Positions 5,253 to 46,544 are shown, counted from the first letter of the stretch. The stretch: DNA of 46,544 bases from Candidatus Eisenbacteria bacterium (GCA_035712245.1 DASTBC010000163.1:1-46544), one strand, 5' to 3'. Program-made: numbers and translations. Notes: generated by a model not told the origin, from the sequence alone.

Positions 5253-5289
5253 CGAGGCCCCGGCTCGTGCCGGGGCCTCGTTGCTTTTT
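5253..5289 (+). terminator. Rho-independent terminator after the first repeat gene
   Basis: A perfect 11-bp GC stem (5253-5263 with 5270-5280) closes a six-base loop and is followed by TTGCTTTTTC. It separates the giant gene from the next paralog. Confidence 0.9.
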
Positions 5290-5364
5290 CGGCGGAAGCG
5301 TTTCACGCTCCGTCGTTCCAGGATCGAGCTTGGGCGTCGGCTCTACCGAGGAGGGTTCCCAGCC

Positions 5365-8300
5365 ATGCGTCGGATCCTGATTCTGGTTCTGGGTGCCGCG
5401 GCGATCGTGGGAGTGGCCGTGCCCGCCGGGGCGCAGTACATGTATCTCGACTCGAACGGGGACGGGGTCCATTCCGCTTCCGACGTGATGAGTCCGAACG
5501 GGACGCCCACCACGGTGGACGTATGGGTCCGCACGAACCAGAATCGGGACGGCAGCGCCGCCGTGTGCAACCGGCAGGATGGCGAGCTGACCATCAACTC
5601 GTACGTGGTCAACCTGGCGGTCGCGAACGGAACGGCGAGCTACAGCGGGTTCATCAACCGGACTCCCTTCGGCGTCGCCTTCGGAGAGCTGAACCCCGGA
5701 AACGGTCTGTACAAGAACGGGTTCGGGCAGCAAGCGCCCCAGCTGCCCGGGCTCTACCGGCTCATGACCCTCACCATCACGGCGACGAGCGGCAGCCCGC
5801 GGGTGGACATCGTCGACATCGTGAACGGCAGCGCCGACTTCACCTCGTTCGGGACGCTGTGCTCGGGGAACGACTTCGACAACACGTACAAGCTGACGGG
5901 TCCCGGCGGGGGCTCGGACTGGACGGACGCGGACGGCCTGAACGCGGCGGGCGGACCGAATACACCACCCGTGCTCGCGCCGATCGGGAACAAGTCTGGA
6001 TTCGTCGGCAGCTGCCAGCCCCAGCCGGTCACGTTCACCGCGACCGCCACGGACCCCGACGCGGGGCAGTCGCTCACGTTTTCGCTGGCCCCGGGTGCGC
6101 CCGCGGGAGCGACGATCCACCCTTCGACCGGCGCGTTCAGCTGGCAGCCGACGACGCCCGGGGTCTTCCCGGTCACGGTCGTCGTGACGGACGACGGAAC
6201 GCCGCCGCTCAGCGACAGCGAGACGATCCAGATCTCGATCGCGGTGGTCAACGAGGCGCCCATCATCCAGGCGATCGGGAACAAGACCGTGAGCGAGGGG
6301 TCGCTTCTCACCTTCGTGGCGACGGCCGTTTTTTCGTGCCCGGACCCGCTCTTCTTCACCCTTGGGTCGGGAGCGCCCGCCGGCGCCGCCATCACGCCGG
6401 GAGGCACTTCGAATTCGGCGAGCGGCACCTTCACGTGGACTCCGAGCGAGGCGCAGGGCCCCGGGACGTATCCCATCACGATCATCGTCACGGACGGCAC
6501 GAGGAGCGACACCGAGACGATCCAGGTCACGGTGCTGGAGGCGAACCAGGCGCCGATCCTGAACCCGATCGGGAACAAGTCGGCGTCGATCGGCTCTCCT
6601 GTGACCTTCACGGCGACCGCGACGGACGCGGACGTCCCGGCCCAGACGCTCACCTTCTCGCTCGGCGCGGGCGCGCCCTCGGGGGCGACGATCGGAGCGT
6701 CCACGGGCAATTTCAGCTGGACGCCGTCGGTGCCGGGCACCTTCGAGGTCACGGTGATCGTGACCGATAACGGCAACCCCGCCCTGAGCGACAACGAGAC
6801 GATCCTGATCGTGACGGGGGGGGTCAACACGCCGCCCGTGCTGGCGGCGATCGGGAACAAGACGGCGAACGAGAACGAGCTCCTGACGTTCACGGCGACT
6901 GCGACGGATGTCGATGTGAATCAGATCCTCACCTTCGCCCTCGGTGCGGGGGCTCCCGCGGGAGCCGCGATCTCACCCGGGGGCGTCTTCACCTGGACCC
7001 CGACGGAGGCCCAGGGTCCCGGCACCTTCCCGATCACGGTCACGGTGACCGACGACGGAGCGCCGCCCCTGAGCGACAGCGAGGCGATCTCGGTCTCCGT
7101 CCTCGACCAGAACAACCTGGCCCCGGTCCTCGCGCCGATCGGAGACAAGACCGCGACCGAAGGGCAGCTCTTGACCTTCACCGCCACGGCCACCGACGGA
7201 GATCTCCCGGCTCAAACGCTCACGTTCTCGCTGGGGGCGGGAAATCCTCCGGGATCCGCGATCTCGCCGGGCGGGAACTTCACCTGGACTCCGACGGAGA
7301 TGCAGGGTGGTTCCTCGTATCCGGTCACGATCCGCGTCTCGGACAACGGAGTGCCGTCCCTCACCGACAACGAGACGATTCTCGTCACGGTGAACGAGAA
7401 CAACATCGCGCCCGTCCTGACTCCCATCGGCGCCAAGACGGCGATGGAGGGCGTGCTCCTGTCCTTCCCGCTGACGGCGACGGACGCCGACATCCCGGCT
7501 CAGTTCCTCGTCTTCTCCTTTGGCCAGGGGGTCGTCCCCGCAGGAGCGATGATCCTCCCCGACAACACCTTCCGGTGGACTCCGTCCGAGGATCAGGGTG
7601 GAGCGGCCTATGCGATCACCTTCGTCGTGACGGACAACGGCACGCCACCGTTGACCGACTCCGAGATCGTGATGATCACGGTCCAGCAGCACAACACCCC
7701 GCCCGTGCTGACACAGCCGTCGGACATGACCGTGGACGAGGGGCAGGTGGCGACTCAGCAGCTGACGGCGACGGACGCCGATCTTCCGGTCAATCCGCTC
7801 ACGTTCAGCAAGGTGACCGGTCCGCTGTTCCTGACGGTCTCGAGCGCCGGCCTCGTCACGGTGACTCCCCAGACGCGGGACGCCGGGAATTATTCCGCGA
7901 CCGTCCGCGTGACGGATAGCGGCCTTCTGAGCGACGTGAAGTCGTTCCTCGTCACCGTGAACAAGGTCAACCTCCTACCGGCCGCCGACGCCAACGGGCC
8001 GTACGTTGGAGTCTCCGGGGTGAACCTCACGTTCGACGGCTCGCTCTCATCGGATCCGAACGGAGACCCGCTCACCTACGCCTGGGACTTCGGCGACGGC
8101 AGCACCGGGAGTGGGGTCAGCCCGACGCACGCCTACGCGGTGGGAGGCCTGTACACTGTGGTCCTCACCGTCAGCGACGGCTCGCTCTCGGCCACCGACA
8201 CGTCGACGGCGACCATCTCCCAGTTCCATTCGTCGCTCGCGTTCGTGACGGGAGGGAACAAGACGGTCCGGCTCGGCTCGGGGAAGCCCCAGACGTGCGT

Positions 8301-8871
8301 GCAGATCGAGCCCGTCTCGGATGCCTACGCGCTCTCCGATGTCGATCTGGCTTCGGTCCGGATGGTGTTCGGAACGAACGAGGTCCCGGCGATCGCAGGG
8401 AAGGCGACCGTCGGGGACGACCGGAACCAGAACGGGGTCATGGAGATCACGGCCTGTTTCTCGAAGGAGAGCCTCCGCGTGCTGTTCGCGGGAGTCGCGA
8501 CGGGAGACTACGAAGTCGCGCTGCGAGGAGACCTGATCACGGGCGGCACGTTCGAGGGATCCCTCACGCTGCACGTGGTCAACAACGGCAGTTTCCTGTC
8601 GGCTAGCGTCTCGCCGAACCCGCTCAACCCGAAGGCGACGGTGTCGTTCGTCACCTCGAGGGTGGGGGCGGTGACCGTCCAGATGTTCGACGTTCAAGGT
8701 CGGTTGATCCGAACCCTGATGGACGAGACTTCGGCTGCCGCGGGACATCATGACGTGACGATCGAAGGAACGGACGCGAATGGTGCCCGGCTCGCGTCGG
8801 GAGTCTATTACGTGAGGATTCGATCCTCCGCGGACGGTGAGGTGCTGAAGGCAGTGACGATCTTGAAGTAG
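5365..8871 (+). CDS. Secreted Ig-repeat / PKD protein, paralog 2
   Basis: The 1168-residue product starts at ATG 5365, chosen because GAGGAGG lies about 10 bases upstream and a clean signal peptide follows (MRRILILVLGAAAI...PAGAQ). The frame itself is open further upstream, into the terminator. The mature end begins QYMYLDSNGDG with an EF-hand/dockerin-like DxNxDG loop, then a domain of about 170 residues shared with the next two genes. After that come six He_PIG units (about 5965-7698), a cadherin-like unit (PSDMTVDEG), a PKD domain (WDFGDGSTGSG, about 7978-8220), the two-cysteine domain (CVQIEP, ACFSK) and the FlgD-like tail ending KAVTILK. Likely surface-exposed; ligand unknown. The stop is followed by only 75 bp and no convincing terminator, so co-transcription with the next gene is likely. 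Confidence 0.92.
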   Translation: MRRILILVLGAAAIVGVAVPAGAQYMYLDSNGDGVHSASDVMSPNGTPTTVDVWVRTNQNRDGSAAVCNRQDGELTINSYVVNLAVANGTASYSGFINRTPFGVAFGELNPGNGLYKNGFGQQAPQLPGLYRLMTLTITATSGSPRVDIVDIVNGSADFTSFGTLCSGNDFDNTYKLTGPGGGSDWTDADGLNAAGGPNTPPVLAPIGNKSGFVGSCQPQPVTFTATATDPDAGQSLTFSLAPGAPAGATIHPSTGAFSWQPTTPGVFPVTVVVTDDGTPPLSDSETIQISIAVVNEAPIIQAIGNKTVSEGSLLTFVATAVFSCPDPLFFTLGSGAPAGAAITPGGTSNSASGTFTWTPSEAQGPGTYPITIIVTDGTRSDTETIQVTVLEANQAPILNPIGNKSASIGSPVTFTATATDADVPAQTLTFSLGAGAPSGATIGASTGNFSWTPSVPGTFEVTVIVTDNGNPALSDNETILIVTGGVNTPPVLAAIGNKTANENELLTFTATATDVDVNQILTFALGAGAPAGAAISPGGVFTWTPTEAQGPGTFPITVTVTDDGAPPLSDSEAISVSVLDQNNLAPVLAPIGDKTATEGQLLTFTATATDGDLPAQTLTFSLGAGNPPGSAISPGGNFTWTPTEMQGGSSYPVTIRVSDNGVPSLTDNETILVTVNENNIAPVLTPIGAKTAMEGVLLSFPLTATDADIPAQFLVFSFGQGVVPAGAMILPDNTFRWTPSEDQGGAAYAITFVVTDNGTPPLTDSEIVMITVQQHNTPPVLTQPSDMTVDEGQVATQQLTATDADLPVNPLTFSKVTGPLFLTVSSAGLVTVTPQTRDAGNYSATVRVTDSGLLSDVKSFLVTVNKVNLLPAADANGPYVGVSGVNLTFDGSLSSDPNGDPLTYAWDFGDGSTGSGVSPTHAYAVGGLYTVVLTVSDGSLSATDTSTATISQFHSSLAFVTGGNKTVRLGSGKPQTCVQIEPVSDAYALSDVDLASVRMVFGTNEVPAIAGKATVGDDRNQNGVMEITACFSKESLRVLFAGVATGDYEVALRGDLITGGTFEGSLTLHVVNNGSFLSASVSPNPLNPKATVSFVTSRVGAVTVQMFDVQGRLIRTLMDETSAAAGHHDVTIEGTDANGARLASGVYYVRIRSSADGEVLKAVTILK

Positions 8872-31320: not shown

Positions 31321-34002
31321 GTGCCGGCGCTGAAGGAGTATCGCCGGAAGCGAGACTTCACGCGCACGCCGGAGCCGCGCGGCGCGCGCCACGTGCCGGC
31401 CCGCGCCCGAGGCCGGGCCGCGGCCACGGGCAAGGATCTCCGGTTCGTGGTGCAGAAGCACGCCGCCTCGCGGCTCCACTACGACTTCCGGCTCGAGCTG
31501 GATGGAGTCCTGAAGAGCTGGGCCGTTCCGAAAGGGCCGAGCCTCGTGCCCGGAGACAAGCGCCTGGCCGTCGAGGTCGAGGATCACCCCCTCGAGTACG
31601 GGGACTTCGAGGGGACGATTCCGAAGGGAGAGTACGGCGGCGGGTCCGTCCTTCTCTGGGATCACGGCTCGTGGGTTCCCAAGGGGGATCCGCGCGAGGG
31701 ACTCCGGAAGGGACGGCTCGGCTTCGAGCTCGGCGGTGAGAAGCTGCACGGCGCATGGATCCTCGTCCGCATGAAGCTCGAGGACGGCGAGAAGCCGACG
31801 TGGCTCCTCATGAAGGAGCGCGACCGATACGCCCGGCCGGATTCCTCGAAGAGCATCGTCGACTCCCGGCCGGAGAGCGTCGTGACCGGGAGGAGGATCG
31901 AGGAGATTGGCCGTTCGGGGTCCAAGGAGCGCGAGTGGTCTTCCAGCCGACCCTCCGCGCGCCGTGCGCGAACGAGCCTCCTTGCCGGCGTGGCGGCTTC
32001 TCCGGGCAGGGCCACGGGTGCGCCCAAGCGCGTCTCCACCAGGCCTGCGCCCGCTCCACAGCTCGCCACGCTCGTCCGCGCGGCTCCCGAAGGGGACGGC
32101 TGGCTGCACGAGATCAAGTACGACGGATATCGCGCGCTCGCGGTCGTGGAAGGGGGGCACGCGACACTCCTGACACGGTCGGGCCAGGACTGGACCGAGC
32201 GATTCCAGGAGGTCGCCGGGGACGTCGCAGCGCTTCCCGTGAAGAACGCGATTCTCGACGGCGAGATCGTCGTGGTGGAGGAAGACGGGCGCACGAGCTT
32301 CCAGGCGCTCCAGAACTCCATGCGCCGCGACCGGGGCGCGGACCTGGTCTACTACGTGTTCGACTTCCTGGAGCGCGACGGACGTGACCTCCGGCGCCTT
32401 CCGCTCGAGGAGCGAAAGGAAGCGCTCCGAGACCTCCTCGCGGAATCGGATCCCTCGAACGGACGCGTCCGCTACAGCGATCACGTCATCGGTCAAGGGC
32501 CTCGGTTTCATCGGGAAGCTTGCCGGAAGAGACTCGAGGGGATCGTCTCGAAGCGGCGGGATGCCCCGTATCGTCCCGGACGCTCGGACGCATGGCTCAA
32601 GGTGAAGTGCTCCGACCGGCAGGAGTTCGTGATCGGCGGCTTCACCGAGCCGCAGGGCTCGCGGGCGGGTCTGGGAGCGCTCCTCCTCGGCGTTCACGAG
32701 AAGGACGGGCTCCGGTACTGCGGGCGCGTCGGCACGGGGTTCACCCAAGAACTCGCGCGCGAGCTGCGGAAGCGGCTCGAGGGAATGAGCGTGGATCGCG
32801 CTCCGTTCCGCGATCCGCCGAGAGGAAGGGGGCTGCACTGGGTCCGTCCCGAGCTCGTCGCCGAGGTCTCGTTCACCGGCTTCACGGACGACGGCAAGGT
32901 CCGGCACCCGTCCTTCCGCGGACTTCGGGAGGACAAGCCGGCCCGCGAGGCGTTCCGCGATCGACCGAGGGTCCCACCGAAGCCGACGCGGAAGGGCCCC
33001 CCGAAGCGGGATCCGGGGCGGAGGGCGCCCGTGAAGGAGCCGCCGGCCGAGGACCCGCCGAAGCCCCCCGTGCGGGAGCCGCCCGACGAAGTGCGGGAGG
33101 CGTCGTATCTCGGCGTGCGGGTGACGCATCCCGGTCGCGTGATCGATCCCGAGAGCGAAACGACGAAAGGTGATCTCGCCGCGTACATGGCCACGGTCGC
33201 GGTCCGCATGTTCCCCCACGTCGAGGGCCGACCGCTCATGCTCCTCCGGTGCCCCGACGGGAGGCACCGCGAGTGCTTCTTCCAGAAGCACCCCAGCACG
33301 CCCCTCGCGCCGACCCTCGCGACGGTGACCGTCACCGAGTCGAAGGGGAAACGTCCCTATCTGAGCGTCCGCACGCCGGCAGGGCTCGTGTCGCTCGTAC
33401 AGATGGGAGCGCTCGAGGTCCATGTCTGGGGATCCCGCGCCGATCGGGAGGAGCGGCCCGACCGCGTGGTCTTCGACCTGGATCCGGGCCCTTCCGTTCC
33501 GTGGCACGAGACGGTGCGGACGGCGCACTCGATCCGGGACCGGCTCGAGGAGCTTGGGCTCACGAGCTACGCCAAGACCACGGGCGGAAAGGGGCTCCAC
33601 GTGGTGGTGCCGATTCGCCGCGGCCCGGACTGGAAGACGGTCGCGGACTTCTCCGGGGCGATCGCGTCGGAGATCGTGCGCGGCGACCCGGACCGCTTCA
33701 CCACCCAGCTCGCGAAGGACCGGCGTCGCGGGCGCATTCTGATCGACACCCTGCGGAACCGCAGGGGCGCGACGTGGGTGGCGCCCTACTCGCCACGCGC
33801 CCGGGAGGGGGTGACCGTCTCCACACCCGTGGCGTGGTCCGAGCTCACGCCCCGCCTCGCGCCCGAGCGCATGACCGTGGCCACCGTACCCAAACGTCTG
33901 GCCCGAGCGGATCCATGGGCCGAAATGGAACGCGTCACGCAGACGATCACCGCATCCGTCCTCCGCGCCATCCTTCCCAGGACCGCCACTCACCGCGTGT
34001 AA
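31321..34002 (+). CDS. ligD: NHEJ DNA ligase D (phosphoesterase-ligase-polymerase)
   Basis: The 893-residue protein has all three LigD activities in the Pseudomonas-like order. Residues about 40-190: 3'-phosphoesterase (RFVVQKHAASRLHYDFRLEL, EDHPLEYGDFEGTIPKGEYG). About 240-540: ATP-dependent ligase with motif I EIKYDGYRAL, catalytic Lys266, then ILDGEIVV, EGIVSKRRDAPY and WLKVKC. A proline/lysine linker (about 545-590) leads to the primase-like polymerase (about 600-880) with catalytic Asp719 and Asp721 in VFDLDPGPS, and KTTGGKGLHVVVP. No catalytic residue looks lost. GTG 31321 is 2 bases after ku. Together they are a complete two-protein NHEJ system. Confidence 0.97.
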   Translation: MPALKEYRRKRDFTRTPEPRGARHVPARARGRAAATGKDLRFVVQKHAASRLHYDFRLELDGVLKSWAVPKGPSLVPGDKRLAVEVEDHPLEYGDFEGTIPKGEYGGGSVLLWDHGSWVPKGDPREGLRKGRLGFELGGEKLHGAWILVRMKLEDGEKPTWLLMKERDRYARPDSSKSIVDSRPESVVTGRRIEEIGRSGSKEREWSSSRPSARRARTSLLAGVAASPGRATGAPKRVSTRPAPAPQLATLVRAAPEGDGWLHEIKYDGYRALAVVEGGHATLLTRSGQDWTERFQEVAGDVAALPVKNAILDGEIVVVEEDGRTSFQALQNSMRRDRGADLVYYVFDFLERDGRDLRRLPLEERKEALRDLLAESDPSNGRVRYSDHVIGQGPRFHREACRKRLEGIVSKRRDAPYRPGRSDAWLKVKCSDRQEFVIGGFTEPQGSRAGLGALLLGVHEKDGLRYCGRVGTGFTQELARELRKRLEGMSVDRAPFRDPPRGRGLHWVRPELVAEVSFTGFTDDGKVRHPSFRGLREDKPAREAFRDRPRVPPKPTRKGPPKRDPGRRAPVKEPPAEDPPKPPVREPPDEVREASYLGVRVTHPGRVIDPESETTKGDLAAYMATVAVRMFPHVEGRPLMLLRCPDGRHRECFFQKHPSTPLAPTLATVTVTESKGKRPYLSVRTPAGLVSLVQMGALEVHVWGSRADREERPDRVVFDLDPGPSVPWHETVRTAHSIRDRLEELGLTSYAKTTGGKGLHVVVPIRRGPDWKTVADFSGAIASEIVRGDPDRFTTQLAKDRRRGRILIDTLRNRRGATWVAPYSPRAREGVTVSTPVAWSELTPRLAPERMTVATVPKRLARADPWAEMERVTQTITASVLRAILPRTATHRV

Positions 34003-35162: not shown

Positions 35163-35314
35163 TGAAACTTGCGTGTCGGTGATCGAACCGTCTTCCGTGA
35201 GCACTGTTGCATGAACGTCGGCGTTCGAAGCCCGCCTGGAAGCCGTTGCGGCGACCAGGACGAGCGGAGACCGCCATCCCGGTCGCCGCGTCCTTCGCGG
35301 CGTGAACCCCAACG

Positions 35315-35527
35315 TCAGTGCACGAGGCCCTCGCCTTGATACTCATCGCCGGCGGAACGGCGCCCGCTCGACGACGTCCACTTCTGAACCATGTGCTCGC
35401 CGCAGCAGCATTTCGGCGCGAGCTCCGCATCTTCCTCCGGCATGCTCGATCCCTTGGTCACGCGGATCTCGCAGCCGCAGTCCGGATTCGGGCACTGGTA
35501 GGTGTCCCCGTTCCGCATCAGAGCCAC
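35315..35527 (-). CDS. Small zinc-ribbon-like protein
   Basis: The 70-residue protein starts at GTG 35527, preferred over ATG 35518 because the GGGAGGGGGA site is correctly spaced only for the GTG. It has two cysteine clusters, YQCPNPDCGCEIRVTKG and PKCCCGEHMVQKW, forming a likely zinc-ribbon. Similar short proteins are found beside stress genes in many soil bacteria; role unknown. The GTG start overlaps the end of the DUF892 gene by 10 bases, so they form one operon. Confidence 0.75.
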   Translation of the reverse strand: MALMRNGDTYQCPNPDCGCEIRVTKGSSMPEEDAELAPKCCCGEHMVQKWTSSSGRRSAGDEYQGEGLVH

Positions 35528-36123
35528 GGGCCGTCCCCCTCCCGCCGTCGCTCGGATTCGGCGCCCGTTTGCCGTGTTCCGGTTCGCGGGGAACCGCGCT
35601 TCTCACCTTCCTTGTCCCCGGTCTCGCTCCCCGCGGTCTCGGCCTCCGCGTTGATGGTCGATTCCGCGATGTCGGTCAGCCGGCGATCCGCTTCCTTCTC
35701 CTCCTCGAGGATCTCCTGGAGGATCCGGGCGGACTTGGTGTCTCCCTTCGTCTCCGCGAACGTGCGGAGGGTTCCATACGAGGCGATCTCGTAATGCTCG
35801 ACCTTCTGAGCCGCCGCGATGATGCCTGCGTCGAGGACGTCAGGCTCGAAGTCCTCCTCGAGGATCTCCTGACCTTCCTCGATGAGTCCGCCCATGCCCT
35901 TGCACGTCTTGCCCGTGGCCGGACGCCCGAGGCCGCGGAAGATCTCCTCGAGCCGCTCGACCTGGCGCTTCGTGACCTCGAGGTGCTCCTCGAGCGCCGC
36001 TCGAAGCTCACGGTTCGAGGCCGCCTTGGCCATCTTCGGCAGGGCTTTCGTGAGCTGCTTCTCGGCGTTGTACATGTCCCGGAGCTGATCCACGTACAGC
36101 TTGTCGAACGAATCCATCTGCAT
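35518..36123 (-). CDS. Ferritin-like DUF892 (YciE/YciF) stress protein
   Basis: The 201-residue protein is a DUF892 four-helix bundle of the ferritin-like superfamily, induced by stress in several bacteria (YciF/YciE). Signatures: DKLYVDQLRDMYNAEKQLTK, RAALEEHLEVTKRQVERLE, KCKGMxGL-like TCKGMGGLIEEGQEIL, VLDAGIIAAAQKVEHYEIA and the closing AxILQEILEEEKEADRRL. The acidic/His residues for a di-metal site (E in YNAEKQ, EEH, VEHYEIA, EEEKEAD) are present. A polar tail of about 45 residues follows. ATG 36123 has AGGAGG nine bases upstream. Confidence 0.92.
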   Translation of the reverse strand: MQMDSFDKLYVDQLRDMYNAEKQLTKALPKMAKAASNRELRAALEEHLEVTKRQVERLEEIFRGLGRPATGKTCKGMGGLIEEGQEILEEDFEPDVLDAGIIAAAQKVEHYEIASYGTLRTFAETKGDTKSARILQEILEEEKEADRRLTDIAESTINAEAETAGSETGDKEGEKRGSPRTGTRQTGAESERRREGDGPWL

Positions 36124-36276
36124 GATGAAGTTCCTCCTGGCCCGGAAGGCGGGCCGGCCGGCGCGAGCGCGCCGGGTTCAGGGCTTGGTCTCGCTCCACA
36201 GCCGGGGAGGCCGGGAACGCGTGCGCTTCCAGATGAGCCACGTGGGGCGTTTTCGATACGGTGTCGCGGAAGTGAA

Positions 36277-36309
36277 GCCGCGGCGCAGCGGAATCGCCTG
36301 CGCCGCGGC
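36277..36309 (-). terminator. Hairpin between ytxH-like and DUF892 genes
   Basis: A perfect 12-bp GC stem (36277-36288 with 36298-36309) with a nine-base loop. On the minus strand it follows the ytxH-like stop by about 30 bases and is followed by TTCACTTCC. The rest of 36124-36339 shows no gene. Confidence 0.5.
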
Positions 36310-36339
36310 GGTGTCGCTCTTCAAGGATCGGTACCGGTG

Positions 36340-36651
36340 TCAGCTCGTAGGAGACCAAGCTCCGGACGTCCCTCGCGCTTCACGGGACCGCCGGTACTCC
36401 TCACGTCCACGCTCCATGGCGCTCCGCGCGTCGTCCTTGATGCCGCGGATCGACTCACGCGTGCGTCCGAACACGTTCCGGGCATTCCCGCCCAGCTTCT
36501 TCGCCGTGCTGCCGAGGCGCTGCCGGGTATCCCTTCCCGCGGCCGGCGCGAGGAGGAGCGCCAGGCCGGCACCGACGAGTGCTCCAACCAAGAAGTTCGG
36601 TTTCACCTTCCTGCCGGTTCCATGGATGTCGAGGTTCTGGAGTTCATGCAT
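36340..36651 (-). CDS. YtxH-domain protein
   Basis: The 103-residue protein has the YtxH pattern: one glycine-rich hydrophobic segment (NFLVGALVGAGLALLLAPAAG) followed by RDTRQRLGSTAKKLG and a charged helical tail (SIRGIKDDARSAMERGREEY). YtxH proteins are small general-stress proteins anchored at the membrane. ATG 36651 has GGGAGG upstream. It faces away from the histidine kinase across 393 bases and is followed by DUF892. Confidence 0.85.
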   Translation of the reverse strand: MHELQNLDIHGTGRKVKPNFLVGALVGAGLALLLAPAAGRDTRQRLGSTAKKLGGNARNVFGRTRESIRGIKDDARSAMERGREEYRRSREARGTSGAWSPTS

Positions 36652-37044
36652 GGGTTCTTCCTCCCTTCCGTGACGGTTCGTCGCGATTCAGTGCCGCGGG
36701 AACTCCGGTACAAGGAAGCCTCGCCTCGTTTGTACCAATTACCGCGAAAAACCGAGGTATGCAGCCCACCTTGCGTCCCGCGTCCGCGCCGATACGAACA
36801 TGCGGCCGCCGTAACTTCCGTCGGGGCCGAAGTCGCCCCCCCAACGTGGATAAAAGCCGTGCAATATCGAGGCCAGGGTGCGGATGCGAGGACGCGCACC
36901 ATGAGGCTCGTGCTCGGGCCGCGCGAATCGACGAGGAAGCAGCCCCTTGAACCTTCGCGCGGCCGGGTGTCATCCTTGATGGGACGATGCGGGGTTCGCT
37001 CCGCGCCGCGAACGAAACCTCCTCGTACCCAGGATCGCGCGTCC
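36652..37044. other. Intergenic region between the ytxH-like gene and the histidine kinase
   Basis: No gene seen. It contains an inverted pair GGTACAA (36707-36713) and TTGTACC (36730-36736) with a 16-base gap, related in sequence to the TTGTA/TACAA palindromes elsewhere in this island. In-frame starts at 36901 and 36977 could extend the kinase, but nothing in that extension looks conserved. Confidence 0.4.
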
Positions 37045-37845
37045 ATGGTCCGTCCGTCCGACTCCAGCGACATCTCCTTCGCCGCACTGGGAGGCGCTCC
37101 TCTCCTTCGCCAGGCGGACGAGCGCCTGCTCGTGGCGTACTTCATGGGAGTGTCGCGACTCTTCCAGGAGATCTCCCATGACATGCGGGGACCCCTTCAC
37201 TCGATGACGCTTCACCTGGAGCTGCTCCGGCTCTCACTGGACGAGCCCGGCAGCCCCGAGTCGAAGGCGAAGCAGGAGCGCTACCTGGGATCGATCGGGG
37301 CGGAGATCCAGCGGCTGGCACGCATGATCGAAGCGCTCTGGGGGCACTCGGGAACCCCGGAGCACTCCGTCGAGCGCTTCGATCTACGGGACACGGTGCG
37401 CGCGCTCTCCGAAGTGCTCGACCCTCATTGCCGGCGCTCGCAGGTCCGTCTCCGCGTGCGTCTCCCCGATGTCCCGATCGAGGTCTCGGGCAGTCCGGGC
37501 GCGATCCGGCACGCCGCGCTCGACCTCGTCTCCCATGCGCTGAGCGCGATGCCGGATGGAGGAGATCTGGAGATCCTGCTCGAGCGGCGGGAGGGAGACA
37601 TTCTCTTGAGGGTCGCCGACCTCGACGGAACCCCGGGTGCGGGTCCCGCGCGCGACGGGAGCGCCCGCCCGCCGGGGACCTTCCCGGAGCCGGAGACGGC
37701 AGAGCCGGTCATCCCGCAGATCGCCCGCCTCGTGATCGAGGCGCACGGCGGCAGCCTGAGGGTGATCTCGAACGCGAATCGCCCGCCGCGCTTCGAGCTC
37801 ACGCTTCCGCTGCCGTCTTCACCCACTCAACCGAATCCGGAGTAA
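37045..37845 (+). CDS. Soluble histidine kinase with degraded ATP-binding domain
   Basis: The 266-residue protein starts at ATG 37045 and has no membrane segment or sensor domain. The dimerisation helix carries a good H-box (RLFQEISHDMRGPLHSM, His45). The catalytic domain is unusual. The N-box region reads ALDLVSHALSAMPDGG, where NtrB-like kinases have N-L-x-x-N-A; both asparagines are replaced (Asp160, His164). G1 is ADLDGTPG, and the G2 glycines before the last helix are replaced by PVIPQIARLVIEAHGG. It may therefore bind ATP poorly and act as a phosphatase or scaffold. The NtrC-type regulator starts 10 bases downstream, so they form a pair. Confidence 0.8.
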   Translation: MVRPSDSSDISFAALGGAPLLRQADERLLVAYFMGVSRLFQEISHDMRGPLHSMTLHLELLRLSLDEPGSPESKAKQERYLGSIGAEIQRLARMIEALWGHSGTPEHSVERFDLRDTVRALSEVLDPHCRRSQVRLRVRLPDVPIEVSGSPGAIRHAALDLVSHALSAMPDGGDLEILLERREGDILLRVADLDGTPGAGPARDGSARPPGTFPEPETAEPVIPQIARLVIEAHGGSLRVISNANRPPRFELTLPLPSSPTQPNPE

Positions 37846-37854
37846 GGAGCACTC

Positions 37855-39204
37855 ATGCCGCAGGCATTGATCGTCGACGACGAACCGAACTCGGTCCATG
37901 CGATGGCCGAGCTCGTGGAAAAGGAAGGATTCGCGACCGCGACCGCCGGGACGCTGTCCGAGGCGCGGAACCGCCTGTCGGAAGACCGGCCGGACGTGAT
38001 CCTCGTGGACCTCATGCTTCCGGACGGGAGCGGGCTCAGTCTGCTGGACGAGCTGGATCCGGCGCGGCGGACCGAGGTGATTCTGGTCTCGGGCCAGGCA
38101 ACCGTGGACTCCGCCATTTCGGCGCTGCGCGTCGGAGTTCTGGATTACCTCACGAAGCCGGTGGACGTACGGCGCCTGAAATCGGTCCTCGCGAACGTCT
38201 CGCGCACCCTTGCCCTGAAGGAAGAGGTGGGCTCGCTGCGCGAAGAGCTGCGCCAGCTGGGCCACTTCGGACGCCTCATCGGCAACTCGCCGCCCATGCA
38301 GCGCGTCTACGACCTCATCATGAAGGTGGCGCCCACCGACGCCACGGTCCTCCTGGTGGGAGAGAGCGGCACGGGGAAGGAGGAGGTCGCCGCCACGATC
38401 CACGAGCTGGGAAAACGTCGAAAGCAGCCCTTCCTCCCGCTCAACTGCGGCGCCGTTCCACCAAACCTGATCGAGAGCGAGCTCTTCGGGCACGAGCGCG
38501 GCAGCTTCACGGGGGCGACGCAGCTTCACCGCGGCTACTTCGAGCGGGCGTCGAAGGGCACCCTGTTCCTCGACGAGATCACCGAGATGCCGCTCGAACT
38601 CCAGGTGAAGCTCCTTCGCGTGCTCGAGACCGGCACCGTATCCCGGGTGGGAGGGGACGAGCCGATCGCGGTCGACGTTCGCGTCATCGCGGCGAGCAAC
38701 CGTGTCCCCGAGGTGGCCGTGAAGGAGGGGAAGTTCCGCGACGACCTGCTCTACCGCCTCAACGTGTTTCCCATCGTCCTGCCGCCGCTCCGTGATCGCG
38801 AGGGGGACATCGAGCTGCTCGCCGAGCACTTCCTCGCGCAGCTGAATCGCGAAGAAGGCACCTCCAAGAAGTTCGGCGCCGCCGCGCGCCGCCGCATCAA
38901 CGGCTACGCGTGGCCGGGAAACGTGCGCGAGCTCATGAACATGGTGCGGCGCGCGTTCATCCTCGCCGAGGACATGGTCGAGATGGAGGGTCTTCCGGTC
39001 GGCGTCGCCTCGTCCTCGCCGTCGGGTGCCGCCGGCGCGACCGAGGCGATCCGCGTGGGCATGTCCCTCGCGGAGCTGGAGCGGCACTTCATCCTCGCGA
39101 CGCTCGAGCAATACGGCGGGGACAAGAGAAAGGCCGCGGAGGTTCTCGGAATCAGCCTCAAGACCATGTACAACCGCCTGAACAACTACGCCGCCACCGT
39201 GTAG
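37855..39204 (+). CDS. NtrC-family sigma-54 response regulator
   Basis: The 449-residue bacterial enhancer-binding protein has a receiver (phospho-Asp52 in VILVDLMLPDGSG, Lys101 in YLTKPVD), an AAA+ domain (Walker A GESGTGKE 169-176, sigma-54 contact loop ELFGHERGSFTGAT, Walker B TLFLDE 236-241, NVRELMNMVRRA) and a C-terminal Fis-like helix-turn-helix (YGGDKRKAAEVLGISLKTMYNRL). The contact loop is GSFTGA rather than GAFTGA, a tolerated variant. AAGGAG precedes ATG 37855. It should activate sigma-54 promoters from upstream enhancers; a near-consensus one lies 150 bases downstream at 39353. rpoN is not in the window. Confidence 0.95.
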   Translation: MPQALIVDDEPNSVHAMAELVEKEGFATATAGTLSEARNRLSEDRPDVILVDLMLPDGSGLSLLDELDPARRTEVILVSGQATVDSAISALRVGVLDYLTKPVDVRRLKSVLANVSRTLALKEEVGSLREELRQLGHFGRLIGNSPPMQRVYDLIMKVAPTDATVLLVGESGTGKEEVAATIHELGKRRKQPFLPLNCGAVPPNLIESELFGHERGSFTGATQLHRGYFERASKGTLFLDEITEMPLELQVKLLRVLETGTVSRVGGDEPIAVDVRVIAASNRVPEVAVKEGKFRDDLLYRLNVFPIVLPPLRDREGDIELLAEHFLAQLNREEGTSKKFGAAARRRINGYAWPGNVRELMNMVRRAFILAEDMVEMEGLPVGVASSSPSGAAGATEAIRVGMSLAELERHFILATLEQYGGDKRKAAEVLGISLKTMYNRLNNYAATV

Positions 39205-40545: not shown

Positions 40546-40758
40546 ATGAGCTGGGACCGTATCGAGGGTAGCTGGAGGCAGCTTCGCGGAAAGGTTCGCG
40601 AGCAATGGGGAAAGCTCACCGATGATGATTTGGACGTCATCGCTGGCAAGCGCGACATGCTTCTCGGCAAGCTCCAGGAAACGTACGGCATCGCTCAGGA
40701 CGAGGCGGAACGCCAGGTGCGCGACTTTCAGCGCCAGTACGAGGGAGGGCGCTCCTGA
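40546..40758 (+). CDS. csbD: CsbD-family stress protein
   Basis: The 70-residue protein starts at ATG 40546 with CGGAGG upstream. MSWDRIEGSWRQLRGKVREQ, WGKLTDDDLDVIAGKRDMLL and GKLQETYGIAQDEAERQV cover the whole CsbD family pattern, a small helical hydrophilic protein induced by general stress in many bacteria (under sigma-B in Bacillus). Function unknown; probably protective. Monocistronic here, with a long leader carrying a palindrome and a sigma-54-like element. Confidence 0.92.
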   Translation: MSWDRIEGSWRQLRGKVREQWGKLTDDDLDVIAGKRDMLLGKLQETYGIAQDEAERQVRDFQRQYEGGRS

Positions 40759-40939: not shown

Positions 40940-42250
40940 ATGCGAGCCCTCGCGTTGTTTCTGATTCTCGGACTCTTCCATGCGGGCTCCGCGCGAGGTG
41001 AGGACGCGCGCTTCGGCGACACCACCTGGGTCGCGCCGAACGCTGGCGCGTTCGATGGCGTGCCCGCGTCTGCGGGACCCCGAGTGGCCGAGCCCGACGT
41101 CGAGCGTGGATGGGAGAAGGCGCTGCGAGCGCCGTTCCGCCTCGTCTTCTATCCGGTCCGCCTCGCCGCGCGCGGCTCCCAGGCCGCGATCACGTTCGGG
41201 AGCCAGTTCATCAACTACGAGCCGAGGCTCATCCCGTGGCTTGGCGTGAAGGCGGCGCCGGTGTTCGGGATCTCGGGCACAGCCGGGCCCTCCGCGGGCG
41301 TTGCGATCCAGGGGAGGTCGGGAATCGGCGCGCGCGCCACGCTCGTGGGCACGTGGTCGGTCAAGGACACGCGGAGACTCCGCCTGCGGGCATCGATCAC
41401 GGAGCCGCAGGCCCGAGCCGTCGTGGAGCTCTACGCGGCCTACGACTACCGGCCCAATCGCCGCTTCTACGGGATCGGCAACGAGACCGTGGAGGATGGA
41501 AAGAGCATCTATCTCCGGCGCGAGAACGTGGCCGAGGCCGCGCTCGTTCTCGGCAAGAATCCGCATCGGCGCATCCGGGGGATCGTTTCCTTCTCCGACA
41601 TCGATGTCGGCGCCGGATACAGGGATGAGCAGCGCGCTCAGGATGTCTATGACCCCGAGGACGTCCCCTTCCTGACCGAGGAGTCGACCGTGGCTTCGGT
41701 CGGAGCGGGGGCGGACTTCGCGCTGCTCGACAACGTGGACGAGCCGTCGCTCGGGATCCACGTGCGCGGCGAAGCACGGCGGTTTGGAAGCGTCGACGAG
41801 TCGAACGTTCATTACGTCTCCTGGTACGGAGAAGGACGGGCGTACCTGCCCGTGCTCGCGTCGCGGCGCGTCATCGCGGTGCGGTATGTCTATGAGGGAG
41901 TGGATCCCCGGAGCGGCTCCGATCCGGTCCCCTTCTACCGGCTTCCGACCACGAGCAACGAGGTGCGCTTCGCCGCCTTCCGTTCCAATCGGTTCATGGA
42001 CCAGCACCTCATGCTCGGGCACGCCGAGTACCGCTGGATCGTCCTTCCTCAGTACGACATCTGGGCGACCGTGTTCGGGCAGCTGGGTGCGGTGGCCCCT
42101 TCGCGAGGAGCATTCCAGGCCGATGAAGCCCACCGCTCGATCGGCGGCGGCTTGCGCGCGAAACTCAGCCCGACCACGACAGCCCGGCTCGAGATCGCTG
42201 GAGGAGACGAGGGAACCCGGATCTATCTCGACCTGAGGGGAGACTTCTGA
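40940..42250 (+). CDS. BamA/surface-antigen-like outer membrane beta-barrel protein
   Basis: The 436-residue protein starts at ATG 40940, the start that gives a signal peptide (MRALALFLILGLFHAGSARG); the Shine-Dalgarno is poor. After a region containing APFRLVFYPVRLAARG come alternating beta-strand patterns. The end has the Bac_surface_Ag (Omp85 barrel) look: FMDQHLMLGHAEYRWIVLPQ, VFGQLG, SIGGGLRAKLSPTTTARLEI and a final aromatic strand YLDLRGDF. No POTRA domains are visible, so it is a stand-alone barrel rather than BamA proper. Its TGA shares the A of the next gene's ATG (TGATG), so they are coupled. Cargo or substrate unknown. Confidence 0.8.
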   Translation: MRALALFLILGLFHAGSARGEDARFGDTTWVAPNAGAFDGVPASAGPRVAEPDVERGWEKALRAPFRLVFYPVRLAARGSQAAITFGSQFINYEPRLIPWLGVKAAPVFGISGTAGPSAGVAIQGRSGIGARATLVGTWSVKDTRRLRLRASITEPQARAVVELYAAYDYRPNRRFYGIGNETVEDGKSIYLRRENVAEAALVLGKNPHRRIRGIVSFSDIDVGAGYRDEQRAQDVYDPEDVPFLTEESTVASVGAGADFALLDNVDEPSLGIHVRGEARRFGSVDESNVHYVSWYGEGRAYLPVLASRRVIAVRYVYEGVDPRSGSDPVPFYRLPTTSNEVRFAAFRSNRFMDQHLMLGHAEYRWIVLPQYDIWATVFGQLGAVAPSRGAFQADEAHRSIGGGLRAKLSPTTTARLEIAGGDEGTRIYLDLRGDF

Positions 42251-43944
42251 TGCTCGCAGGTAGCGTGTGGCGTTTCCGCCTGCGCGTCGCGGCGGTCGCG
42301 TTCCTCCTCGCGTCGTGGTCGACCGCCCTCGCCGCGCAGGAGAGTGCTCCCGGCACCAAGGAGTGCCACGACGGCACCGTGCCCATCGACCGTGACACTC
42401 CGGTCGATCACGACGCATGCCCGGCTCCGGCCCCCAAGGAGAGGGAGCCGAGCCTCCCGGCCCATCTCTACCGCGAGGCCATCGTGGAGGAGCTGAGCCG
42501 GATCTTCGACATCCCGGACAAGATCATCTGGGCGCTCGGCCCGCTCGGCGTGGAGCCGAACCGGGAGGCCGCGAACGTGAACGCGTTCGACGAGGTGCCG
42601 AACTCGACCTGGTTCACGAACCGGAATCACGTCCGCTCGGTGTCTCCGTCGGAGATCCGGGAGGGACCGGGAAAGGGGGTGAAGCCGGAGAAGCCGTGGA
42701 AGATCGTCGACCTGAAGCGCTCCGGAATGACTCCCGGGTTCCACATCAAGGATGGGAACGACCGACGGTGGCTGATCAAGCTCGACGCGCCGGGATATCC
42801 GCAAGCGGGGTCGGGGGCCGCGGCCGTGTCGAGCCGGCTCGTCTGGGCCGCGGGGTATCACTTCACCCACGACCAGGCGGTCGCGTTCCATCGCTCGGAC
42901 CTGACGCTGGACGAGGACCTGAAGCAGGGAAAGGAAGGGAAGCCGGTGAGCGACTCGGACCTCGAGTACCTCCTCGCGCTCGGCGCGAGGGATCCCGACG
43001 GAACGCAATACGCCGCCGCGAGCCTCTTCCTCGAGGGAAGTCCCATCGGTCCGTTCGAGTTCCGGGGCAGGCGCGAGGACGATCCGAACGACTGGTACCA
43101 GCACAAGAACCGCCGCGAGCTCCGCGGCCTGTGGGTGGTGTACTCGTGGGTCAACAACTGGGACGTGAAGGATCACCAGTCCCTCGACATGTTTCACGCG
43201 CCGGACGGTGACTCCGTGGGACACGTGATCCACAACCTGCTCGACGCGAGCGCCTCCCTGGGCGCCGCCGCGCAGGGGACGAAGGACCTTCCCACCGGCT
43301 ACGAGAAGCGGATCGATTTCGGCTGGATCGCGAAGCGCCTCGTCTCGCTGGGATTCGCCGAGGAGCCGTGGCGCCGGATCGACCAGGACACGGGCATCCC
43401 CTCGATCGGGAACTTCGCGTCCGAGGGCTTCGAGCCCGACGACTGGGAGCCGGCTCAGGACCTCGCGCCCTTCCGGGAGAAGGAGCTGGGGGACCTCTAC
43501 TGGGGAGCGAAGCTCGTCGCCTCGTTCTCCGACCGGCAGATCCGCGCGGCGATCGATGCCGTGGGATATCGGGATCCCCGCGCTCCGGAGACCCTCTTCC
43601 GGATCCTGAAGGAGCGCCGGGACGCGATCGCGCGGTACTGGTTCGGCCGCGTCGCGCCGCTCGACTTCTTCACGGTCGAGGGGGGCACGCTGCGGTTCCG
43701 CGACCTCGCGGTCGACCTCGGGCTGACTCCCGCGCGAGAGTACGAAGCGCGGATCACCCCGTCCGGAACCAAGGGCGACTCGCGGGCGGTGAGCTTCCGT
43801 GGAACCGCGTTTCCGCTCTCGCAGCTGGGAGAGGCGAGCGAGTTCACCCTCGAGCTCCGCGTTCGCGGCTCGAACGCCCATCCCGTCCGTCTCGAGCTAC
43901 GCCGGGCCTCGCCGTGGGCGATGGTTCGCGTGAGGCATGGGTGA
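42250..43944 (+). CDS. Exported protein of unknown function, possible kinase-like core
   Basis: The 564-residue protein has a signal peptide (FRLRVAAVAFLLASWSTALA, cleavage near residue 29) and acts outside the cytoplasm. I do not recognise a named family with certainty. The middle resembles atypical kinase folds (HipA/FAM20/PI3K-like): RRWLIKLDAPGY with Lys177, AVSSRLVWAAGYHFTHDQ, a catalytic-loop-like SWVNNWDVKDHQSLDMF with Asp305, and a metal-site-like HNLLDASASLG with Asp332. The last 100 residues look like a separate beta domain (DFFTVEGGTLRFRDLAVDLG). It is coupled at both ends: TGATG from the barrel gene, and GTGA into the phosphoesterase. The kinase idea is inference. Confidence 0.7.
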   Translation: MLAGSVWRFRLRVAAVAFLLASWSTALAAQESAPGTKECHDGTVPIDRDTPVDHDACPAPAPKEREPSLPAHLYREAIVEELSRIFDIPDKIIWALGPLGVEPNREAANVNAFDEVPNSTWFTNRNHVRSVSPSEIREGPGKGVKPEKPWKIVDLKRSGMTPGFHIKDGNDRRWLIKLDAPGYPQAGSGAAAVSSRLVWAAGYHFTHDQAVAFHRSDLTLDEDLKQGKEGKPVSDSDLEYLLALGARDPDGTQYAAASLFLEGSPIGPFEFRGRREDDPNDWYQHKNRRELRGLWVVYSWVNNWDVKDHQSLDMFHAPDGDSVGHVIHNLLDASASLGAAAQGTKDLPTGYEKRIDFGWIAKRLVSLGFAEEPWRRIDQDTGIPSIGNFASEGFEPDDWEPAQDLAPFREKELGDLYWGAKLVASFSDRQIRAAIDAVGYRDPRAPETLFRILKERRDAIARYWFGRVAPLDFFTVEGGTLRFRDLAVDLGLTPAREYEARITPSGTKGDSRAVSFRGTAFPLSQLGEASEFTLELRVRGSNAHPVRLELRRASPWAMVRVRHG

Positions 43945-45512
43945 GTCGGGGAAAGTTGCGGGTGTCGCGCGCTCTCCTGCTCGCGTCCTGCATCGCGCTG
44001 GGCGCCTCGATTCTCGCATCCGGTGGATGCGCCAGGACCGGCCGGCTCTCCTTCCAGTCACAGCCCGTCTCCCCGGTGGCGCCGGACAGCACCGCTCCGG
44101 GCTCGCCGCAGCGTGTGTCCGGCAGGACCCCGGCCCGGATCCGAGCGCTCTTCGCGGGGGACTCCCTGATCGGGCTCATCCCCGGCACCGCGGATTCGAG
44201 CCGTCGCTACCTCGGGCGCATGTACCAGGGATTCACCGCCGACACGATGCACATCATGCTCCTCGGGGACAACCGCCCGGCGTACCGCACCGCGCGCCTC
44301 CGTCCCGAGTTCATCAAGATCAAGCAGATGGCCTCGCTCAACCCCGTCAAGTGGCTGCGCGGACTCGTCACGGTCCCGGTCGTGCTCGTGAAGGGGCTCT
44401 ATCCCGATCTCGCCCTGATCCGGGACGTTCCGGCCATCATCACGAAGAAGCCGAACTACGGCCGGGAGGTGGACGTCCTCAAAGCCCTGACCGCGAAGGT
44501 CGACTCTCTCGAAGCCGAGGGGAAGATCATGGCGGCCGTCATCAACACCGGGGACCTCGTCAAGGACGGGCGCTACCCCGCGCACTGGGAGCGCTTCCTC
44601 GAGCTGACGCGGCCGCTCTCACAACGCGTGTCCTACTTCCCGGTCGCCGGAAATCACGAGCGGACCGACACGCCGGAGGGACTGGAGAACTGGAGGGCGG
44701 GGACCGGCCTGCCGATCAGCGGGGACCGGCTCTACTACTGCTTCGACAGCGCGGACGGCTGGGTGCGGTTCATCGCGCTCGACTCGAATCCCATGACGGA
44801 TCCCGCGAACCGGTGGTCCCGTGAGGTCGAAATCCAGTACTCGGAAGAGCAGATCGACTGGATGGTCGCGCGCCTCAAGGAGCATCGTGGCCCCGCCTTC
44901 GTGTTCCTGCATCATCCGCCTTTCTCGGTGGGATTCCACCGCGTGGAGTGGGAGCTCGACGAGATGCTGCGGGATCGTCGCGAGCGCATGGTTCGCTCTC
45001 TCTACGAGGCCAAGATCGGCATCATGGCCGCGGGCCACGAGCACGCCTACGAGCGCGTCATTTTCACCTGGCCCGACGCTGCCCTCATCTATATCGTCGC
45101 CGGCGGCGCGGGATCGCCGCTCCACGACATCCCGTCGCCGTCCCAGAGCGCCGTCCTGTTCAGTCAGTACAAGGTGGCGGGGGCGACGGTGAAGCCCGAG
45201 AACGTGTACAGCGGCGAGATCTTCCACTTCATTCATCTCAGGCTCTGGTTCGGCGGCGGTGACTTCTACACCTACGCCGTGGAGAAGGGCGGGACGGTGA
45301 AGCTGGTCGACCACGTCCAGGTGGACCTGGAGCGCTACGGCATTCCCGAGGTCGACCAGCAGAAGATGCCGCTGCCACCGAAGCCGACGGGGCCCGAGAT
45401 TCCAGCGCCACCCGAGGAGGTTTCGGAAAGCAAGGAAGCCGCCACTGCCGGCTCCGATTCGGTCTCGGCCAGCCAGCGAATCCAAGCACAGCCGCCGCCG
45501 ACGACCCGGTGA
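43941..45512 (+). CDS. Calcineurin-like metallophosphoesterase, probable lipoprotein
   Basis: The 523-residue product starts at GTG 43941, overlapping the previous stop (GTGA). An N-terminal hydrophobic stretch ends ILASGGC (Cys30), a likely though not ideal lipobox. The dinuclear-metal motifs are complete: LLGDNR, VINTGDLVKDG, VAGNHE, FLHHPPFS and GHEHAYER, as in purple-acid-phosphatase-like enzymes. The C-terminal 60 residues are a proline/serine-rich tail. It should hydrolyse phosphoesters in the periplasm or on a membrane face; the substrate is unknown. It lies directly downstream of the possible kinase-like protein, which suggests linked phosphoryl chemistry. Confidence 0.88.
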   Translation: MSRGKLRVSRALLLASCIALGASILASGGCARTGRLSFQSQPVSPVAPDSTAPGSPQRVSGRTPARIRALFAGDSLIGLIPGTADSSRRYLGRMYQGFTADTMHIMLLGDNRPAYRTARLRPEFIKIKQMASLNPVKWLRGLVTVPVVLVKGLYPDLALIRDVPAIITKKPNYGREVDVLKALTAKVDSLEAEGKIMAAVINTGDLVKDGRYPAHWERFLELTRPLSQRVSYFPVAGNHERTDTPEGLENWRAGTGLPISGDRLYYCFDSADGWVRFIALDSNPMTDPANRWSREVEIQYSEEQIDWMVARLKEHRGPAFVFLHHPPFSVGFHRVEWELDEMLRDRRERMVRSLYEAKIGIMAAGHEHAYERVIFTWPDAALIYIVAGGAGSPLHDIPSPSQSAVLFSQYKVAGATVKPENVYSGEIFHFIHLRLWFGGGDFYTYAVEKGGTVKLVDHVQVDLERYGIPEVDQQKMPLPPKPTGPEIPAPPEEVSESKEAATAGSDSVSASQRIQAQPPPTTR

Positions 45513-45562: not shown

Positions 45563-46544
45563 ATGAGATCCGAAGGGGATGCGCGAGCGCGTGCGGCAAG
45601 CGGAGGAGGCCCGCTCGACAAGGTCCTCCGCCTGTTCGCGGACGTGCGGGGGGGAGAGGGAGTCACCGCGGTTCTCCTCAGCCTCAACATCTTCCTGCTC
45701 CTCGCGTCGTACTACCTTCTCAAGACGATCCGGGAGCCGCTCATCCTCACCGTTCCCGGCGGCGCGGAGGTGAAGAGCTACTCCTCTGCCGCCATCGCCG
45801 CCCTCCTGATCGTCCTGGTGCCGATCTACAGCGCGCTCGCCTCCCGCGTATCGCGCGTGAAGCTGATCAACGGCGTGACGCTCTTCTTCATCCTCTGCCT
45901 CGTGGCGTTCTTTCTCCTGAACCGGTCCGGCGTTCCGGTGGGAGTCGCGTTCTTCATCTGGGTCGGAATCTTCAACCTGATGGTGATCGCGCAGCTCTGG
46001 GCGTTCGCGAACGACGTCTACACGGTGGAACAGGGGAAGCGGCTCTTCGCGATCGTGGGAGTGGGGGCGTCGCTCGGAGCGATCGCGGGCTCGTTCTTCA
46101 CGGGCCAGCTCGTGGACGAGCTTGGACCGTACCCGTTCATGCTCGCCGCGGCAGCCCTCCTGGGCCTCACGATGATCCTCACGAACGTGATCAACGTTCG
46201 GGAGAAGCGCGGCGGCGCGGGCGACGCCCTGACCGCGGGGGACCGCGCGGAACGGGAAGGGGCTCCGGCGGCCGCGGACGCGCGCGAGGAAGAGTCCGGT
46301 GACTCCCACGGGGGCGAGGATCGTGTTCGCGGACGGAGCGGGTTCGCGCTGGTGCTCACGAACCGCTATCTCCTCCTGATCGCCGCGCTCATGCTCCTCG
46401 TGAACGTGGTCAACACGACGGGGGAGTACATCCTGAGCAAGACCGTCGTCGACGTGTACGCCGCGGGCGCGGGCGCGGCGACGGCCGCCCCGGTGGACGA
46501 GAAGAAGGTGATCGGAGAGTTCTACGGAAACTACTTCACGATCG
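45563..46544 (+). CDS. Nucleotide (ATP/ADP-type, Npt/Tlc family) transporter, 3' partial
   Basis: The frame starts at ATG 45563 behind GGGGGGAG and runs off the window after 327 codons. LNIFLLLASYYLLKTIREPL followed by ILTVPGGAEVKSYSSA is the opening of the Npt1/Npt2 (Tlc-type) nucleotide transporter family. Further helices with VAFFIWVGIFNLMVIAQLWA, FANDVYTVEQGKRLFAIVGV, GASLGAIAGSF and a Gly/Glu/Asp-rich loop follow, then NRYLLLIAALMLLVN. Free-living bacteria carry such proteins with untested substrates; ATP/ADP exchange is proven only in some intracellular species. It lies 50 bases after the phosphoesterase, probably the same operon. Confidence 0.85.
   Translation, partial: MRSEGDARARAASGGGPLDKVLRLFADVRGGEGVTAVLLSLNIFLLLASYYLLKTIREPLILTVPGGAEVKSYSSAAIAALLIVLVPIYSALASRVSRVKLINGVTLFFILCLVAFFLLNRSGVPVGVAFFIWVGIFNLMVIAQLWAFANDVYTVEQGKRLFAIVGVGASLGAIAGSFFTGQLVDELGPYPFMLAAAALLGLTMILTNVINVREKRGGAGDALTAGDRAEREGAPAAADAREEESGDSHGGEDRVRGRSGFALVLTNRYLLLIAALMLLVNVVNTTGEYILSKTVVDVYAAGAGAATAAPVDEKKVIGEFYGNYFTI

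Follow-up and report, generated by a model that had tools for sequence, protein, structure and literature searches.

At the right end of contig C163 of a 3.5-Mb assembly, which is the entire stretch of DNA analysed here (46,544 nucleotides; hereafter the window), a protein of 564 residues is encoded that, as judged from profile comparisons, appears to belong to the HipA-like kinases as a new exported branch. Sequence analysis shows its export signal, the conservation of its presumed catalytic residues, its kinship with HipA-like kinases, its coupling with an outer-membrane barrel, and its association with a nucleotide transporter of the NTT family. We think that it may well be a HipA/FAM20-like envelope phosphotransferase that works together with the barrel, with the NTT protein as the likely supplier of ATP. 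Searches of the literature on exported HipA kinases and periplasmic kinases turned up no description of this protein family, nor did the searchable papers contain one of the gene set to which the exported HipA-like branch belongs.

Gene arrangement and partner proteins

The right end of the contig carries four genes on the plus strand: an Omp85-type barrel gene (40940..42250; ATG at 40940, TGA at 42248-42250), whose product of 436 amino acids begins with the signal peptide MRALALFLILGLFHAGSARG; the exported kinase-like gene (42250..43944; ATG at 42250, TGA at 43942-43944; 564 amino acids); a gene for an exported calcineurin-like metallophosphoesterase (43941..45512; GTG at 43941; 523 amino acids); and an NTT/TLC-family nucleotide (ATP/ADP) translocase gene (45563..46544; ATG at 45563) that is truncated where the contig stops. 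The barrel and kinase-like genes share one base in the junction TGATG, the kinase-like and phosphoesterase genes overlap by four bases in the junction GTGA, and 50 bases separate the end of the phosphoesterase gene from the start of the transporter gene. This is the arrangement given in the first-pass annotation, which had reported three genes overlapping by 1-4 bases and a transporter 50 bases on; two overlaps join the three genes. The interval that it delimited (42250-45512) comprises the kinase-like and phosphoesterase genes, with the barrel gene located just upstream.

Another contig of this genome, C5 (L102), very probably holds the remainder of the transporter gene: its end encodes the same nine residues (EFYGNYFTI) and then continues to a stop codon; no exact overlap of at least 20 bases joins the two contigs, though both contig ends encode these residues. 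On contig C5, a convergent NTT-HEAT gene follows the end of the transporter gene, and the same arrangement is present in the relatives L089 and L091. Elsewhere in the window, a histidine kinase and a sigma-54 type response regulator are encoded upstream of the barrel operon (35302-39204), with a CsbD-like stress gene (about 40549-40758) between this pair and the operon. The window further encodes two very large proteins (41-5155 and 5281-8871) with Ig-like, cadherin-like and PKD repeats and FlgD-type C-terminal Ig domains, as well as a full LigD protein with 3'-phosphoesterase, ligase and primase-polymerase domains (31321-34002).

Of 55 loci, 51 have a barrel gene directly upstream of the kinase-like gene, on the same strand and within 360 bases. 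The remaining four comprise L103 and L128, which are contig ends, L139, which is masked there, and L144, where the kinase-like gene is the second in a tandem pair. The barrel/kinase-like pair recurs across three phyla and its occurrence is not due to chance; the survey strongly supports the barrel that was proposed as a partner from the window alone. The window barrel scores below the cut-off of PF01103 (E 0.0016; 18.5 bits versus 24), while eight of ten homologs match this model (best 1e-23), the barrel matches the NCBIfam model Omp85_fam (6e-13), and its profile matches the BamA and TamA barrels in the PDB. No POTRA match was found in the barrel protein, in which only about 75 residues precede the barrel. 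By these sequence criteria the upstream gene encodes an Omp85-superfamily outer-membrane beta-barrel without POTRA domains. It resembles BamA and TamA in the C-terminal barrel part, but differs from them in the lack of POTRA domains, in its size (about 430 amino acids) and in being tied to one partner gene.

The phosphoesterase matches PF00149 (3.2e-9) and contains the GD, GNHE, H and GHxH elements in the metal motifs NTGDLVKD, GNHE, LHHP and GHEH, the first motif of the protein reading GDNR; its nearest solved sequence is diphosphonucleotide phosphatase 1 (E 1e-4). It is found directly downstream of the kinase-like gene in seven loci, all of them from the window's own phylum. We therefore dropped it as a core part of the system and regard it as an accessory of one phylum. 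Hence, the four-gene set that had been put forward as a coherent system stands with respect to the barrel partner and the NTT link, but not with respect to the phosphoesterase.

Kinship of the exported protein to HipA-like kinases

Residues 1 to about 29 of the 564-residue protein form a Sec signal peptide. Sequence searches of Pfam, NCBIfam and the PDB gave no match for the protein and none of significance for its family; armadillo-repeat matches of the family profile in the PDB were judged to be chance. Of 47 genomes from the window's own phylum, 17 contain relatives, as do about 50 of the 297 from Acidobacteriota and about 19 of the 298 from Gemmatimonadota; the viral contigs that were searched yielded none. 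The two named loci of the family belong to MAGs of Gemmatimonadota and Acidobacteria. As judged by eye, nearly all homologs carry a signal peptide or a lipoprotein signal, the latter being present in many members from Gemmatimonadota. Since practically all members possess such a signal, export of the family to the envelope is most likely. Tandem barrel-kinase-barrel-kinase pairs occur at L126:173-6707 in genome G314, where the kinase-like gene is present four times. In an acidobacterial genome (G117), one copy (L049:71-1891) is split by a single TAG stop codon, while a second copy is unbroken.

To compare the family with known kinases, we used hhalign to align a 53-member alignment with HipA, HipA_2 and CotH sets gathered from acidobacterial genomes. 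The family matched HipA_2 (PF20613) at 96% (E 3.9e-9) and HipA (PF07804) at 83% (E 9e-6); when the window protein defined the match columns, the values were lower (94% and 56%, respectively). Reversed profiles and the CotH, barrel, NTT and phosphoesterase controls all remained at or below 0.5%, ten decoy families taken from the same loci at or below 0.9%, and the known kin HipA and HipA_2 matched each other at 93%. Kinship to CotH (PF08757) was rejected, the profile comparison yielding 0.1%. In the alignment, Lys177 (codon 42778..42780) falls on the beta-3 lysine of the kinase N-lobe in both HipA_2 and HipA, D305 and position 310 of the motif D305-V-K-D-H-Q310 (43162..43179; D305 codon 43162-43164; consensus D-x4-N) on the N-x-D-x4-N catalytic loop of HipA, and Asp332 (codon 43243..43245; all on the plus strand) on the DFG-like, metal-binding Asp in the IDFG motif of HipA_2. 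PF20613 alone matches one family member at E 7e-4. The Pfam cut-offs of HipA_2 and HipA_C are not reached, the window protein being unmatched and the best relatives attaining E 0.14 and 20.5 bits versus a cut-off of 27. PF06702 (FAM20) matched neither the window protein nor its relatives; a search of the genomes with this model was silent even in the controls and hence says nothing about an absence of FAM20 from them.

A second unnamed family of exported acidobacterial kinase-like proteins of about 350 amino acids, itself without a significant Pfam match, joins the 564-residue family at 99.4% (E 2e-21; hhalign). It displays the full kinase pattern, with an alpha-C Glu, NNWDxKxxNN and SDxGATFG, and is encoded at L107:1187-2347, L108:1047-2102, L110:1087-2118 and 3588-4847, L111:946-2307, L114:1288-2484 and L115:1023-2390. 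This family has neither a barrel nor an NTT partner nearby, and an NTT gene is present in only one of the 21 genomes that have this family alone.

AlphaFold2 models, each built from three sequences, were made of the full-length window protein and of the core of the relative L006, and were poor (mean pLDDT 41 and 46, respectively). The first 120 residues of the L006 core mostly reached a pLDDT of about 70-90, except for the alpha-C stretch, and follow the order beta1-beta2-beta3-alphaC-beta4-beta5 of a kinase N-lobe with the Lys at the end of beta3; the C-lobe was unresolved in these low-pLDDT models. All of the eight best PDB matches of the L006 core are Fam20C or Fam20A, which is only suggestive because the best E value is 0.023 and none is below 0.001. 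With the full-length model, Foldseek returned mostly Fn3 domains (E 0.02-0.2) along with weak matches to Fam20C, SidJ and an alpha-kinase. Residues of about 470-564 (43657..43941, plus strand), to which the Fn3 matches of this weak model refer, possibly form an Fn3/Ig-like beta-sandwich; the region is missing in several relatives, with L014-L018 stopping before it. The models being poor, the case for a kinase fold comes from the profiles, which make a kinase-like fold of the 564-residue protein very likely. The resemblance to FAM20/HipA-type kinases noted in the first-pass annotation is thus upheld for HipA, the profile match being significant and the three residues falling on the kinase Lys, Asp and Asp.

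Conservation of the catalytic residues and the NTT link

The ordered Lys177/Asp305/Asp332 pattern read from the window protein is present as described, and its residues are conserved: in a first set of sequences, without family f5, in 17 of 17, 16 of 16 and 16 of 16 cases, and in a second set of 52 sequences in 48, 50 and 51 cases, with N310 kept in 51. In the consensus, the order is that of a beta-3 Lys, a catalytic-loop Asp with an Asn five residues on, and a DFG-like Asp, the consensus around the last being H-Y-L-I-D-F-x-x-x-L-G. A Gln replaces the metal-binding Asn at position 310 in the window copy, as it does in the two relatives closest to it, so that full activity of this copy is less certain; the Asp or Glu that relatives carry in the presumed alpha-C is an Ala in the window copy.

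Every catalytic residue is lost in the five genomes of family f5 (L097, L098, L099, L100 and L106), and in a distant acidobacterial copy (L056, identical to L125; genome G204) the Lys, Asp, Asn and Asp are replaced by Thr, Leu, His and Gly, respectively. The tree, with strong support on the deciding branches, forces two separate losses. That four positions were lost jointly, and twice, is as expected of one active site. Invariant positions beyond the active site (GxRxDDPxD..H..RR.LRG) are kept in the dead branch, and one f5 genome holds a second, fragmentary copy (L027) that retains the Lys. Family f5, in which the barrel partner is kept, the catalytic residues are gone and an NTT gene is found nowhere in the genome, constitutes a natural pseudokinase branch.

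In parasites, NTT proteins serve in the uptake of ATP from the host, and they are thought to be a mark of energy parasites. Those of free-living bacteria are uncharacterised, their function being an open question, and members of the NTT family carry varied substrates (PMC5381601). The cut transporter of the window matches PF03219 (3.4e-10; 39.8 bits versus a cut-off of 21), its relatives score 46-75 bits, and a profile of the partner NTT proteins matches, along the entire transporter, the solved ADP,ATP carriers 9j3n (6.6e-37) and 9j3j. At the level of the family, the assignment of the transporter to the ATP/ADP type is therefore borne out: it is a real NTT protein and not merely MFS-like. No papers on solved NTT structures turned up in a literature search.

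Of the 55 loci, 24 have an NTT gene no more than 4 kb from the kinase-like gene; these include 12 of the 14 own-phylum loci that do not belong to f5, whereas all five f5 loci lack one, and in many acidobacterial and gemmatimonad loci no NTT gene is within reach. At the level of whole genomes of the window's own phylum, an NTT gene is present in all 12 that have a member with an intact motif, in none of the five with a dead motif and in four of the 30 without a member, for which Fisher's test gives p-values (1.6e-7 for intact versus none, 1.6e-4 for intact versus dead) that overstate the case because the genomes share descent. The same caution applies to Acidobacteriota, where 45 of 50 genomes with the kinase-like family and 50 of 247 without it have an NTT gene (p 4e-21); five genomes thus possess the family without a found NTT gene, and 50 an NTT gene without the family. 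We considered whether the NTT link merely reflects lineage, but it holds within family f11 alone (p 3.9e-4) and when stratified over f1, f2 and f11 (p 1.7e-5), as judged from counts rather than from a species tree. Collectively, the neighbourhood survey and the genome-level co-occurrence bear out the proposed link between the ATP/ADP transporter and the kinase-like gene.

A possible envelope phosphotransferase and its relation to known systems

The fold, the catalysis and the substrate of the protein, like the ATP route and the direction of transport, are what we infer in the following model. Lys177, the D305/N310 loop and Asp332 would bind ATP and metal, and the enzyme would phosphorylate, or otherwise modify with ATP, a periplasmic or outer-membrane target together with the barrel, which might serve as docking site, target or exit. 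The NTT protein would most likely exchange cytoplasmic ATP for periplasmic ADP and so feed the enzyme; in the window's own phylum, the periplasmic phosphoesterase would probably reverse the modification or clear nucleotide. Members with an intact motif are probably active phosphotransferases, while the supply of ATP by the NTT protein is conceivable at slightly less than even chances. Only tentatively do we extend the model to the broader view that three or more phyla include free-living bacteria in which ATP exported by NTT proteins in exchange for ADP powers phosphorylation, whether periplasmic or on the outer membrane, by an exported HipA/FAM20-like kinase and its dedicated POTRA-less Omp85 barrel.

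Other readings share parts of this evidence. The kinase-like superfamily includes AMPylating (SelO), glutamylating (SidJ) and lipid- or sugar-phosphorylating enzymes, and that the family performs one of these reactions, for instance on LPS or a cell-surface glycan, is somewhat unlikely yet worth considering: SidJ and an alpha-kinase are listed by Foldseek beside Fam20 and the partner is an outer-membrane barrel, but no feature was found that favours any one of these chemistries, and the catalytic-loop Asp and the DFG-like Asp stand in their usual order. Unlikely, too, is a role in the salvage of extracellular phosphorylated compounds by the phosphoesterase and the kinase-like protein, with the NTT protein importing a nucleotide product or carrying another metabolite and having nothing to do with ATP supply. 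The varied substrates of the NTT family (PMC5381601) and the weak resemblance of the phosphoesterase to a diphosphonucleotide phosphatase are in line with it; the dependence of the NTT gene on an intact motif is, however, better explained by a need for ATP, and the phosphoesterase is missing outside the window's own phylum.

The protein might instead be a pseudoenzyme or structural scaffold, with a kinase fold that serves for working with the barrel or for being exported by it, leaving ATP unused and the NTT link a matter of shared lineage. The catalytically stripped f5 branch that retains its barrel, the Asn to Gln exchange in the window copy and a barrel coupling more universal than that to NTT genes would suit such a pseudoenzyme, which we nevertheless regard as quite improbable, given that the catalytic residues are among the best conserved in all other branches and were lost together rather than piecemeal, and that the presence of an NTT gene goes with the intact motif even within f11. 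Least probable is a barrel-partnered envelope protein unrelated to kinases, in which the Lys/Asp/Asp pattern arose by convergence; the lack of database matches and the poor structure models would agree with it, whereas the significant profile match with aligned catalytic residues and clean decoys, and the bridging family of about 350 amino acids with its full kinase motifs, speak against it.

The envelope phosphotransferase that we favour would be a surprise, since the bacterial periplasm is generally taken to lack ATP and an exported kinase would here be matched by an ATP/ADP translocase. It would offer a directly testable role for the NTT proteins of free-living bacteria and, if the reading as ATP export is true, would explain why they are common there; the HipA-like kinases also gain an unnamed exported branch, in which lineages that have lost the catalytic residues in nature serve as controls.

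With HipA and HipA_2 (PF07804, PF20613), the protein shares a predicted kinase-like core in which the Lys, the N-x-D-x4-N loop and the DFG-like Asp follow in the same order, but it is exported, coupled to a barrel and below both Pfam cut-offs. It also differs from the HipA toxin-antitoxin kinases in its signal peptide and in having neither a HipB partner nor the HipA N-terminal domain, the neighbours of its gene being the barrel, phosphoesterase and NTT genes rather than a HipB-like antitoxin gene. The Golgi kinases FAM20C and FAM20A act outside the cytosol and need ATP to be brought across a membrane. They are likewise kinase-like and provide the best fold matches of the L006 core model (weaker than E 0.001), but no sequence kinship to them was found, and the present family belongs to the bacterial envelope and has a barrel partner. 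CotH spore-coat kinases are bacterial kinase-like proteins that act on an outer structure (PMC7821199), and differ in the lack of profile kinship. Compared with the NTT/TLC translocases of Chlamydia, Rickettsia, plastids and free-living bacteria, the partner transporter matches the solved ADP,ATP carriers from end to end, but its gene shares an operon with those of a barrel and a kinase-like protein, and the function proposed for it is the export of ATP rather than its uptake from a host.
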